From Actinopolymorpha singaporensis (GTDB lineage Bacteria > Actinomycetota > Actinomycetes > Propionibacteriales > Actinopolymorphaceae): a DNA stretch of 64,000 bases. The notes under the pieces were generated by a model. It made no database searches. It saw only the letters and a program-made list of their open reading frames with translations, and had not been told where the DNA came from. The translations under genes and the position numbers were made by a program. Each line of letters opens with the position of its first letter. Position 1 is the first letter of the stretch. Location of the stretch: positions 1,736,001 through 1,800,000 of the forward strand of contig NZ_LT629732.1 in the NCBI RefSeq assembly GCF_900104745.1. The letters run 5' to 3'. Shown here piece by piece: positions 1-9,333 of this stretch.

Positions 1-974
1 AAATCGGGGTCATGGACCGAAGGTGATAGCGGGGTTAGGCCGGAGTCCTTAACATGTGCCGCGAGGAGATTCTGAAGTCTTCGATGGGCCGACAGGCCGC
101 GGCCGTAGGAGTCTGGATCAGGGCTACGGGGTTCACTCAACTTGGGAAGGACGAGCTCGTCCTGGTGTCGGTACGGTGCCCCTAGGTCCTTCTTCGGTAG
201 TGACGTTGGAGGGGACGAGACCGGGCGCAGGCGGAAGATGATCACCTTTCTGAGCTTGTCGCTATCGGTCTGGGCGGCCATCGCATATTGATACGGCTGT
301 ACATCGTCGAGGACGAACTCGCCAACGTACGTGACAAATCCGCCGGCACCTTCAAAAAGCCGGAGGGCCCGACCATCCTCTGCGTGGTCCCGGATGGCTT
401 TATTGCCGCTAACGAACTGTTGATCGCCGCGTTGACCGCGGCCCGTGTAAAGGAAACTGCCGTCCGTGTCCCACTCGTCTTCGTAGCCATGTCGTGACCC
501 GGACCTGGGGTCAGTAAATAGGAAGACATTAGCGCTCTGGCGCGAAGGGCTTACTCCGTCCTGACCGGAACCACCATATTGGGCATGAAGCTCAGTTCGC
601 TTGATAATTTCGCCCGGCACCAAGTGCCACTCTTTTGCTGATGTGGAGAGGCGCGACTGTTCAAATGATCCTTGGAGTCCCTCGGGGTTAGCGACGGTGA
701 AACCGAGTTTCTCAAGGAGGGAAAGAACCGTCTTCTCGCCACCAGAGAATTCGGACGCAGTAAGCGCTCGCTCACCCGGGTACTGCTTCGAGTATGCCAC
801 TCCCACGATCGCCTTGGAAGGATATCTCCTGTCTCCCAAATAGAGTTCATATGACCTTGCTCGGCCAAAGCCATATCGCTTGTGGAACGTCTCTTCGCCA
901 AGCTCGTCATACTCAGCAGCTGCCGCAATAATCGCTGCCGAATCCGTGACATCCGATAGTCGACGCGTGCCCAA
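1..974 (-). CDS. ScoMcrA-type sulfur-binding-domain restriction protein (partial, runs off left edge)
   Basis: This minus-strand frame is open from about 1193 to the window edge without a stop, so its C-terminus lies outside. Residues about 10-95 carry the helical N-terminal module of ScoMcrA-like proteins (EYDELG, YGFGRARSYEL, YPSKAIVGVAY, SGGEKTVLSLLEKLGF). Residues about 116-250 match the sulfur-binding domain (VPGEIIKRTELHAQYGG, VSPSRQSANVFLFTDP, HGYEDEWDTDG, YTGRGQRGDQQ, GNKAIRDH, GRALRLF). This domain recognises phosphorothioated DNA and is normally joined to a nuclease. A further segment beginning RGLSAHRRLQNLLAAHV may open that nuclease domain, but it is cut by the edge. I chose the TTG at 974 because GGGGGGAA lies upstream with good spacing and the family N-terminus starts there; an in-frame ATG at 1193 would add 73 residues unlike the family. 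GC is visibly lower than in neighbouring genes, which suggests transfer. Confidence 0.8.
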   Translation of the reverse strand, partial: MGTRRLSDVTDSAAIIAAAAEYDELGEETFHKRYGFGRARSYELYLGDRRYPSKAIVGVAYSKQYPGERALTASEFSGGEKTVLSLLEKLGFTVANPEGLQGSFEQSRLSTSAKEWHLVPGEIIKRTELHAQYGGSGQDGVSPSRQSANVFLFTDPRSGSRHGYEDEWDTDGSFLYTGRGQRGDQQFVSGNKAIRDHAEDGRALRLFEGAGGFVTYVGEFVLDDVQPYQYAMAAQTDSDKLRKVIIFRLRPVSSPPTSLPKKDLGAPYRHQDELVLPKLSEPRSPDPDSYGRGLSAHRRLQNLLAAHVKDSGLTPLSPSVHDPD

Positions 975-1271: not shown

Positions 1272-2459
1272 CTACTGCTGGCCGAGCCAGAGGTCGGGGC
1301 CGAAGACCTCGTAGTGGATGGCTTCCGGAGTCAGGCCGAGGGCCAGCAACTGTCCTCGTACGGCTCGCAGGAAGGGCAGCGGCCCGCAGAGGTATGCGGT
1401 CGCGTCGGACGCGATCGACAGCCCGCTCAGATCGACGAACCCCGTCCGCTCAGCCGGCCACTCACCCTCAGGAACCTCGTACCACACCGCGGCCTGGGCG
1501 TTGCCCAGCTTGGCGACCAGCTGTTCCAGGTCGGAGCGGAACGCGTGCGTCGCGGGGGAGTAGTCGCCGTGGGCGACGGTGACGTGCCGGGCGGAGTTCG
1601 TGGCGGCGAGGTGGTCGAGCATGCTCATGATGGGCGTGCAGCCGATGCCCGCGGAGGCGAGCACCACCGGGCCGTCCGCGTCGTCCAGGCTCACGTCGCC
1701 GAACGGCGCGCTCACCCGCAGGACGGCGCCCTCGTGCACGCGGTCGTGCAGGAAGTTGGAGACCTCGCCGTCCGGGGCGCCGACGATCCGCTTGACCGCG
1801 AACCGCAGGGCGTCCGGCGCGGTCCCGGACAGGCTGTACTGCCGGATCTGGTGCGCACCGTCGGGCAGTTCCACCTGCACCGAGACGTACTGTCCCGGAC
1901 GAGCCGGCGGCAGCGGGCCCTCGTCCACCGGGCGTACGAGGAACGTCGCCACGTCCGCGGTCTCCTCATAGCGTCCGACGACGCGGTACTCGCGCCAGGT
2001 GTCACCGTTGACGGCGCCGGCCTCGGCGTAGAGGCGGGACTCGATGGCGATCAGTGCGTTCGCCATCAGCCAGTACACCTCGTTCCACGCCTGCGCGACC
2101 TCGGGCGTGACCGCCTCGCCGAGCACCTCCGCGATCGCCTCGAAGAGGTACCTGTGCACGATCGCGTACTGGTCACGGGTGATGCCGAGTGACGCGTGCT
2201 TGTGGGCGATCCGGGAGAGCATGGCGTCCGGCCGTACGTCGGGATGCTCAACGAGTGCCGAGGCGAACGCCGCGATGGAGCCGGCGAGCGCCTGCCGCTG
2301 GGTGCCGTTCGCCTGGTTGCCCCGGTTGAACAGGTCACGGAGCAGTTCGGGGTGGGCGGCGAACATCCTGTCGTAGAAGAGACCGGTGATGTCGCCGATC
2401 GCCGCGCCGACGGCGGGGAGAGTGGCACGAATCATGGCAGCCGACTGCTCGGACAGCAT
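1272..2459 (-). CDS. hmp: Flavohemoprotein, nitric oxide dioxygenase
   Basis: This cytoplasmic enzyme oxidises NO to nitrate using O2 and NAD(P)H. The 395 residues show the usual three parts. A globin domain (about 1-138) has the B10 tyrosine at Y29 (LFYDRMF) and the proximal histidine in IAHKHASLGI. An FAD domain (about 150-260) carries the RQYSLS flavin motif. An NAD-binding domain (about 265-395) carries GIGCTP, YLCGP and the terminal EVFGPD. Length is normal for the family. GGAGGTAGGCC precedes the ATG. The next gene upstream, 78 bases away and on the same strand, is an NsrR-like NO sensor, which fits NO-induced control of this gene. The identification is firm. Confidence 0.95.
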   Translation of the reverse strand: MLSEQSAAMIRATLPAVGAAIGDITGLFYDRMFAAHPELLRDLFNRGNQANGTQRQALAGSIAAFASALVEHPDVRPDAMLSRIAHKHASLGITRDQYAIVHRYLFEAIAEVLGEAVTPEVAQAWNEVYWLMANALIAIESRLYAEAGAVNGDTWREYRVVGRYEETADVATFLVRPVDEGPLPPARPGQYVSVQVELPDGAHQIRQYSLSGTAPDALRFAVKRIVGAPDGEVSNFLHDRVHEGAVLRVSAPFGDVSLDDADGPVVLASAGIGCTPIMSMLDHLAATNSARHVTVAHGDYSPATHAFRSDLEQLVAKLGNAQAAVWYEVPEGEWPAERTGFVDLSGLSIASDATAYLCGPLPFLRAVRGQLLALGLTPEAIHYEVFGPDLWLGQQ

Positions 2460-7922: not shown

Positions 7923-8627
7923 TCACCGCGCACCGGGAATCTCGCCGGTGTAGATGATCTGGTGTGCCACCTCGCGCAACTTGATGTTGCGGTGCTGGGA
8001 GATCCGGCGCAGGACGTCGAAGGCTTCCTGGCTGTTCAGGCGATAGCGTTCCATGACTATTCCGACCGCTTCGCTGATGTCGGAGCGGGTCTTCAGCGCC
8101 TCGGTGAGCGTCTCCGCCCGGCGGGCCGCCGCGATCGCCACGCTCGCGTGTGCGGCGAAGATCGCGCCGACGGCCCGGGACTGCTCGGTGAACGCCAACG
8201 GCCGATCGGCGTACAGGTTGAGCGCCCCGATCACCTCGTCGCGCGCACTCAGGCGGAACGACAGCATGGCCGCCACCCCGAGCTTCGTCGCGGCCGGACC
8301 GAACCTCGGCCAGTGCGGATCGTTGGCCAGGTCGTTGGCGAGGTTCACCAGGTTGTCGTCCACCGAGGCCACGCACGGGCCTTCGCGTAGTGCGTACTGC
8401 GCCTTGTCGACCTCGGACACGAAATCGTCGGTCGCAGCCGCGGTGTCGAACCGGCCGCGGGCACGTCGCAACGAAACGCCTGCCGCGGAAGCCCCTGGAA
8501 CGCTGGTGGCGGCGGCCTTCACCACCGAGAGTAAAGTGGACTGTTCGGAGTCCGCCGCCCACAGCTGTTCCATCAGTTGGGCGAATCCCAGGGCCAGGCG
8601 TTCACCCTCGAATCCCTGCGCATCCAT
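7923..8627 (-). CDS. GAF and ANTAR domain-containing transcription antitermination regulator
   Basis: The 234-residue protein has a GAF domain (about 25-165: LLSVVKAAATSVPGASAAGVS, YALREGPCVASVD, FRLSARDEVIGALNLYA) followed by a clear ANTAR domain (about 170-225: LKTRSDISEAVGIVMERYRL, NSQEAFDVLRRISQHRNIKL). It is the first of three tandem paralogues. A SigB-type promoter lies ten bases upstream of the start codon, so transcription should begin almost at the ATG and respond to general stress. Confidence 0.9.
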   Translation of the reverse strand: MDAQGFEGERLALGFAQLMEQLWAADSEQSTLLSVVKAAATSVPGASAAGVSLRRARGRFDTAAATDDFVSEVDKAQYALREGPCVASVDDNLVNLANDLANDPHWPRFGPAATKLGVAAMLSFRLSARDEVIGALNLYADRPLAFTEQSRAVGAIFAAHASVAIAAARRAETLTEALKTRSDISEAVGIVMERYRLNSQEAFDVLRRISQHRNIKLREVAHQIIYTGEIPGAR

Positions 8628-8637
8628 AAGGCGGGAC

Positions 8638-8661
8638 TACCCGGCCAGTTGCCTGCAAAAC
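8638..8661 (-). promoter_or_regulatory. SigB/SigF-type stress promoter GTTT-N15-GGGTA
   Basis: On the minus strand, GTTT (8661-8658) and GGGTA (8642-8638) are separated by exactly 15 bases, the actinobacterial general-stress sigma consensus. The GAF-ANTAR start codon at 8627 follows closely. Two further matches in this window (near 10706 and 37325) precede stress-like genes. Confidence 0.65.
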
Positions 8662-8760
8662 GACAGCCGTGCCCACGAAGGAACGGGTCGCTATGCGTAC
8701 AGGGGTTGCTGGCGGGTAGCCACGGAGGTGATGTTCCCGCCGGCTCAGAAGGAGCGCCAG

Positions 8761-9276
8761 ATGATCAACGCCACTGCCGCCCTCGGCCGACTGGCGAACG
8801 AGGAGCACGCGTACGAACACGGCCACGAGCGGCCACTGCGCGGGTACCTCGCGGCGATGGCGGTGTTCGCCGGCGGCACCGGAGCCGTCGCCGCGCTGGC
8901 CCGGATGACCGGCCGGCAACTGCCCGAACGCATCGCGCTCACGGACGTGATCCTCGGCGGCGTGGCCACCCACAAGTTCGCGCGCATCCTCACGAAGGAC
9001 GCGGTGACCAGCCCGGCCCGGGCGCCCTTCACCCAGTACGAGGAGCCGGCCGGCTCGGCCGAGCTGAACGAGAGCCCGCGCAAGGACAGCGAGCTGCGGC
9101 ACGGGATCGGGGAACTCGTCACCTGTCCGTTCTGTCTCGCGCCGTGGATCGCGACCGGGTATGTCGCCACGCTGACGTTCGCGCCGCGGGTGGCCCGGGC
9201 CTGGTCGGCGGTGATGACCACCGTGGCGATCTCGGACGCCCTCCAGCACGTGTACGCGCGGATCCGCACGGAGTGA
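8761..9276 (+). CDS. DUF1360 membrane protein
   Basis: The 171-residue product carries the DUF1360 signature: ALTDVILGGVATHKFARILTKD, then VTSPARAPFTQYEEP, GIGELVTCPFCLAPWIA, and a last helix (SAVMTTVAISDALQHVYA). Two to three hydrophobic segments suggest membrane association, with the CPFC pair at the start of the third. DUF1360 proteins are known from Bacillus sporulation lists, but their biochemical role is not established. The start at ATG 8761 is supported by AAGGAG. Confidence 0.85.
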   Translation: MINATAALGRLANEEHAYEHGHERPLRGYLAAMAVFAGGTGAVAALARMTGRQLPERIALTDVILGGVATHKFARILTKDAVTSPARAPFTQYEEPAGSAELNESPRKDSELRHGIGELVTCPFCLAPWIATGYVATLTFAPRVARAWSAVMTTVAISDALQHVYARIRTE

Positions 9277-9333
9277 GGTGGACCACTGCCGCGAGTGCGG
9301 GTCGCGTCCTCGTGTACGGGGGTAGTCATTGCC

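Follow-up and report, generated by a model that had tools for sequence, protein, structure and literature searches.

A candidate restriction endonuclease for C5-modified cytosine in Actinopolymorpha singaporensis: a ScoMcrA-type head, an SRA-like domain and a PD-(D/E)xK nuclease in one predicted chain

Introduction

ScoMcrA (SCO4631) of Streptomyces coelicolor is a type IV restriction enzyme whose domains run in the order head, sulfur-binding domain (SBD), SRA-like domain and HNH nuclease, the contacts made by its SBD being residues between 109 and 191 (PMC6224610). It prefers DNA containing 5mC or 5hmC, with 5hmC favoured, cuts near methylated sites and displays strong non-specific activity in Mn2+ (PMC7461809). 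MspJI and AspBHI possess an SRA-like N-terminus and a Mrr-type PD-(D/E)xK C-terminus, a precedent which establishes the pairing of an SRA-like domain with a PD-(D/E)xK nuclease as a working plan, and SauUSI acts on 5mC and 5hmC DNA (both PMC3874153). How a domain of the SRA type holds its base is illustrated by SUVH5, in which Tyr416 and Tyr428 flank the flipped base and Asp418 holds it, a trio that contacts 5hmC and also 5mC (PMC4740795).

Here we describe a gene at the left edge of a 64,000-nucleotide stretch of the A. singaporensis genome (G000:C1:1736001-1800000, referred to below as the window; the genome is 6.4 Mb in a single contig). A preliminary description of this DNA saw a ScoMcrA-like restriction protein directed against phosphorothioate-modified DNA. 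The relationship to ScoMcrA and the low GC content of the gene stand, and the protein is most likely modification-dependent; the assignment of sulfur as its target is not supported. Our studies suggest that the gene product is quite probably a modification-dependent (type IV) restriction endonuclease that unites reader and nuclease in a single chain and targets C5-modified cytosine, a reading that draws on sequence comparison and structure prediction.

Results and Discussion

The gene and its frame

On the minus strand, a frame described earlier as running off the left edge of the window is indeed open there: the ORF list places no stop inside the window, and extension of the frame into the genome puts the stop at L002:15730, 270 bases left of the window. 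Read from a TTG codon at window position 974, which is preceded by a GGGGGGAA stretch and is likely the start codon, the frame is intact over 414 codons and yields a protein (P0002) of about 414 aa. Because the frame stays open upstream of this TTG to an ATG at 1193, the start position is not certain. The gene has a GC content of 57.5% versus 69.8% for the window, in agreement with the earlier remark that this DNA is less GC-rich than its surroundings, and a GC3 of 0.62 versus 0.73-0.94 in the 13 other predicted ORFs of L002. It is an accessory gene, matched at E 0.001 in 0 of the 7 other genomes of the family, and an inspection of short repeats around it revealed no convincing borders. Its domains and surroundings are collected in Table 1.

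Table 1. Positions of the gene, its predicted domains and residues, and nearby features
Feature	Position	Strand	Basis or remarks
5' part of gene for Head-SRA-PD-(D/E)xK protein	1..974	-	aa 1-324 of ~414 if the start is TTG 974; remainder left of window
ScoMcrA-type head domain	684..950	-	aa 9-97; phmmer, PADLOC, head profile built in this analysis
SRA-like domain, predicted reader of C5-modified cytosine by base flipping	210..662	-	aa 105-255; profile and fold searches
Predicted pocket residues	Y164, window 483-485; D166, 477-479; Y176, 447-449	-	comparison with SUVH5
Start of PD-(D/E)xK nuclease domain	3..119	-	~aa 286-324, including most of the RGLSAHRRLQNLLAAHV stretch
Flavohemoprotein, hmp-like	1272..2459	-	right flank; named by reading only
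gdhA	L002:13735-15102, left of window		named by reading only
Defence cluster and element genes	genome C1, about 1693600-1716100 (L082:3621-9213, L003:40-15071)		left of window

Head and SRA-like domains

The N-terminal head domain of the ScoMcrA architecture is present, as the preliminary description had it: aa 9-96 match residues 7-93 of the ScoMcrA chain 5ZMM (phmmer, i-E 1e-8), and the PADLOC model mREase_IV matches at 7.6e-15, with its best stretch at aa 12-95. Single-sequence alignment of the region that follows is weak, aa 128-216 pairing with 5ZMM 272-360 at i-E 0.058 and with 5ZMN at 0.027 (phmmer). The position of this pairing is nevertheless informative, since residues 272-360 fall after the SBD in the order of ScoMcrA domains, which identifies the middle stretch with the SRA-like domain. 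With a profile of 45 middle-domain sequences, these matches strengthened to 1.1e-8 (5ZMN) and 2.3e-8 (5ZMM), and the SUVH5 SRA domain was recovered as well, at 0.0011; Pfam SAD_SRA is matched at E 0.0025 and 18 bits, below its cut-off of 30.7.

Predicted structure led to the same place. An AlphaFold2 model of the part of the protein encoded in the window (mean pLDDT 74.2, with blocks of residues 111-250 at 79-97) matched in Foldseek ScoMcrA (2.5e-9), the SUVH5 SRA domain (4e-6), AspBHI (5.7e-5), MspJI (3e-4) and the UHRF1 SRA domain (3.9e-3), and there were no SBD-only chains among the best 50 of its 161 Foldseek rows. Alignments in the top rows, for this model and for that of the relative L022 described below, have a large rmsd of about 4 to 21 A. 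On the concordant evidence of profile and fold searches, the middle domain is the counterpart of the SRA-like domain of ScoMcrA and not of its SBD.

When SUVH5 was compared through the 45-sequence profile alignment, with residue numbers matched by hand, Tyr416, Asp418 and Tyr428 aligned with Y164, D166 and Y176 at equal spacing. Both tyrosines are invariant over 34 sequences, in which D166 reaches at least 90%; in the larger set of 45, invariance holds for Y176, while Y164 and D166 are each conserved in at least 90%. The feature that marks the general class of SRA-based modification-dependent restriction endonucleases, an SRA-like domain with a predicted base-flipping pocket, is thus present by fold, by profile and by the Tyr/Asp/Tyr trio.

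The C-terminal nuclease domain

A single open frame spans the SRA-like domain and a tail of about aa 286-414, most of which is encoded beyond the window. The segment behind the binding domain had been thought unlike the HNH domain of ScoMcrA and possibly the start of a different nuclease, and the extended protein agrees: D326, E339, K341 and Q358, encoded just left of the window, belong to a PD-(D/E)xK motif, and an alignment of 12 proteins shows D326, E339, K341, G357 and Q358 to be invariant. No Pfam HNH model matched P0002 at E up to 1, and the HNH reading was rejected. Judged from these residues, the C-terminus is a PD-(D/E)xK nuclease and not an HNH nuclease. The nearest Pfam model is XisH, at 19.5 bits against a cut-off of 25 and so below it.

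As a stand-in for the nuclease part of the window protein, we modelled whole the relative L022, which is 52% identical over aa 106-402 (mean pLDDT 75.7). Among PDB folds this model matched AspBHI first (5e-7), followed by ScoMcrA, plant SRA and EVE structures; the weak matches EcoO109I (0.057) and the XisH-like 2OKF (0.11) ranked lower.

The nuclease domain is found once more in this genome, in the gene at C1:1697402 (locus L020), 44% identical over aa 263-404. It is also fused to a methylase-associated MTaX1 domain in L011 and L012 and to a weak BRCT match in L013; L016 looks alike by eye and has no Pfam match.

Proposed action and the mark that is read

We propose that the SRA-like domain would flip C5-modified cytosine (5mC and/or 5hmC) from the helix and take it up in the Tyr/Asp/Tyr pocket, and that the C-terminal nuclease, through D326, E339 and K341 with Q358, would then cleave close by. 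Cleavage would probably involve a dimer or larger assembly, with the head at the N-terminus as a putative accessory module. The presumed targets are phage or plasmid DNA. Because the host genome yielded no C5-cytosine methyltransferase (PF00145 had no match there and matched in 10 of 14 control genomes), incoming DNA with a C5-cytosine mark would be foreign to this host.

Whether relatives avoid such methyltransferases more widely was addressed in the class sample, where PF00145 is matched in 8 of the 23 genomes that carry an SRA-type relative and in 204 of the 371 that do not (Fisher two-sided p 0.083; p 0.12 when the own genome is removed). The 23 genomes are hand-picked class rows, own included, with an SRA-region match of E 6.2e-19 or better; four weaker SRA rows (G599, G649, G675, G696) and head-only or nuclease-only rows were left out, and with the four weaker rows added the counts become 10 of 27 versus 202 of 367 (p 0.075). 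We regard a class-wide anti-association of SRA-type relatives with C5 methyltransferases as a trend only. Within the family (8 genomes), comparison of the window gene and SauUSI-like genes, the latter sought at an E limit of 1e-20, shows one or the other in G000, G754 and G755, which have no PF00145 match; G752, G753 and G756 have PF00145 and neither enzyme, and G757 and G758 have none of these. The SauUSI-like gene of G754 is in pieces and lies elsewhere in the genome. This pattern (Fisher two-sided p 0.20) fits a modified-cytosine target, eight genomes being too few to prove exclusion.

The same machinery, cutting at a distance from its recognized base, could serve another mark, such as a hypermodified phage base or N4-methylcytosine. 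SRA-like domains vary in preference (PMC7461809), our pocket comparison is confined to the Tyr/Asp/Tyr trio, and relatives combine the SRA-like domain with SBD or EVE-like readers, all of which leaves room for an alternative mark. Since the protein keeps the very residues with which SUVH5 contacts 5hmC and 5mC, and the host genome has no C5 methyltransferase match, we consider a mark other than 5mC or 5hmC improbable.

More improbable still is that the gene is an inactive remnant of a once mobile gene, or that such a gene now specifies a DNA-binding regulator that lacks nuclease activity. The GC and GC3 values, the lack of a match in the other seven family genomes and the TTG start would all suit a remnant, but decay is hard to square with a frame that has remained intact over its whole length while the invariant pocket and catalytic residues were kept.

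The least credible reading is the one first advanced, a phosphorothioate-dependent enzyme whose middle domain is an SBD binding the sulfur of dnd-modified DNA. It draws on the head domain common to the window protein and ScoMcrA, on the existence of relatives with the order SBD-SRA-nuclease, such as L060, and on the absence of a dndC match (TIGR03183) in the own genome, as expected of a phosphorothioate-restricting host, which is a weak negative because the control genomes matched in 5 of 14 cases and exceeded the cut-off in 0 of 14. P0002 found no match to SBD-only chains at E up to 1 in phmmer, the matched parts of ScoMcrA being its head and SRA-like domain, whereas the SBD part of L060, serving as a positive control, matched 7CCJ at 2.9e-11 and 5ZMN at 3.4e-10. 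An SBD profile built in this analysis and seeded from L060 and L078 matched 12 of the 2845 ORFs of the fetched loci, the window gene not among them; with E allowed up to 10, it matched none of the 1222 six-frame segments drawn from L002, L003, L082 and the window. With the SRA fold of the middle domain, these searches led us to reject an SBD in this protein, and an attack on phosphorothioate-modified DNA is left unsupported, the domain taken for an SBD being SRA-like. The target assignment is accordingly corrected from sulfur to modified cytosine.

A modular set of relatives

Some part of the protein is matched at E 0.001 in 16 of the 396 genomes of the phylum sample and in 51 of the 394 genomes of the class sample, the own genome included in each; among the places listed for the two samples, no match besides the own gene covers the full query. 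Loci were fetched from the phylum, class and further relative searches, only part of the class matches becoming loci, and in their ORFs an SRA-like domain over at least 80 aa occurs 64 times, in ORFs of which 62 are distinct. A PD-(D/E)xK domain follows the SRA-like domain in 55 of the 62. Nothing else was recognised in 43 of these 55; an EVE-like domain stands in front in three (two Streptomyces, one Nonomuraea), an SBD in front in six and between the SRA-like and nuclease domains in one (L068:529-1968), and two, the window protein and L042 from an Erythrobacter MAG, have the head. Because the domain profiles were seeded from loci later counted on, seeds account for part of the EVE-like and nuclease counts. 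The L074 gene, whose SBD and SRA-nuclease parts lie in different frames, was counted without its SBD. The remaining seven ORFs lack a PD-(D/E)xK nuclease, and two of them have NOV_C instead (L006, L055).

Several arrangements were seen alongside these counts. In L055:3838-5244, from a Bacilli MAG, the SRA-like domain is fused to NUDIX and NOV_C. Nonomuraea fuscirosea has two SRA-nuclease genes within 5 kb (L022:4557-5921 and 8337-9323), one with the EVE-like front domain. On contigs classed as viral, six of eight relatives (L111, L113-L115, L117, L118) carry SRA and nuclease, so that the pair does occur on such contigs, and L112 and L116 carry the nuclease only. Gene 63 of Gordonia phage Sidious (L119:3052-3948, annotated hypothetical) matches in both SRA and nuclease (28.8%, aa 96-383) and has no Pfam match; it adjoins two methyltransferase genes, with an ASC-1-like gene near. 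Among plasmids 1194 records matched, and of 40 listed (e.g. hits H25-H62), 38 match only the head (query 5 or 21 to 94); the listed head-only matches are mostly annotated DUF3883 and come mostly from enterobacteria.

Current models barely see these proteins: for the window protein, Pfam stays below cut-off, NCBIfam has no match up to E 1, and PADLOC detects it mainly via its head. Provided that they are active, enzymes of this sort would add to the means of mapping modified cytosine, and the SBD-SRA and EVE-SRA relatives would offer a direct test of whether one enzyme requires two DNA marks.

The hmp-gdhA gap and the wider neighbourhood

The window gene sits between the 3' ends of hmp and gdhA. 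In the congener G755 the same gap, with flanks 93-94% identical, holds a 1047-aa PLD-helicase-DUF3427 protein (L093:9255-12398) that scores 1221 bits with PADLOC mREase_IV and has SauUSI (7CLG) as its best PDB match at 6.5e-77. In G753 and G756 (L106:2031-16158 and L107:1327-14332) the gap is filled by a 1586-aa helicase protein, whose sacsin-like match falls short of the Pfam cut-off, together with a UvrD-like helicase protein, DrmA, DrmB, a C5-methyltransferase and Vsr, and with an additional HNH protein in G753. The gap methyltransferases are the only full-length PF00145 matches of these two genomes, G753 also having an 84-residue piece. In the other four family genomes, hmp and gdhA either were not located as neighbours or had no close match. 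By its gene content, the gap is a variable defence spot in the genus, occupied in three congeners by other defence genes (SauUSI-like in one, DISARM-like in two). The hmp gene itself has a partial duplication in G753 and is fragmented in G756.

Combining this gap with the relatives described above, we offer a conjecture that may well prove wrong: that the protein belongs to an undescribed modular family with a core of SRA-like and PD-(D/E)xK domains and a slot for a second reader (EVE-like, SBD or head), so that two marks may be checked, and that the hmp-gdhA gap is, in this genus, a site of epigenetic conflict, holding either a modified-cytosine restrictor or a C5-methylating DISARM-like system, never both.

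A defence island to the left had also been suspected, and this fits only in a loose sense. The adjoining left neighbours, named by reading only, look like gdhA, a small ORF, an AraC-like regulator, a dioxygenase-like gene and an MFS-like gene, with hmp on the other side, and a defence island directly around the gene is not supported. At about 30-42 kb left of the window lies a defence cluster of a NACHT ATPase, the L020 protein with the same nuclease domain, a SNF2 helicase and an MmeI-like type IIG enzyme; the genes that separate it from the window gene were surveyed by reading. Beyond it are a pSAM2-type RepSA gene and a phage-type integrase, which suggests an integrative element.

Comparison with known systems

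The literature searched yielded no description of a head-SRA-PD-(D/E)xK protein, which is weak evidence of absence given that subscription papers lay mostly outside the search. ScoMcrA shares with the window protein both the head and the SRA-like domain, and differs from it in that the window protein has no detected SBD and has a PD-(D/E)xK nuclease in place of HNH. The MspJI/AspBHI family follows the same SRA-then-nuclease plan, with AspBHI the best fold match of L022, although its members matched the window protein in fold searches and not in sequence searches, and the head is an extra domain of the window protein. The predicted EVE-PD(D/E)XK type IV enzymes (PMC7641849) are, like the window protein, fusions of a reader to a nuclease, whereas the window protein has the head N-terminally and the SRA-like domain in the middle; in the relatives L021-L023 an EVE-like domain takes the place of the head, the evidence in L022 being Pfam EVE at E 0.0011, below cut-off, and fold matches to the EVE structures 2AR1 (0.003) and 2EVE (0.016). 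SauUSI, whose likeness fills the same hmp-gdhA gap in a congener, is unrelated in architecture and includes a helicase. Viewed against these systems, the window protein is most likely a new combination of known parts within the known class of SRA-based modification-dependent restriction enzymes.
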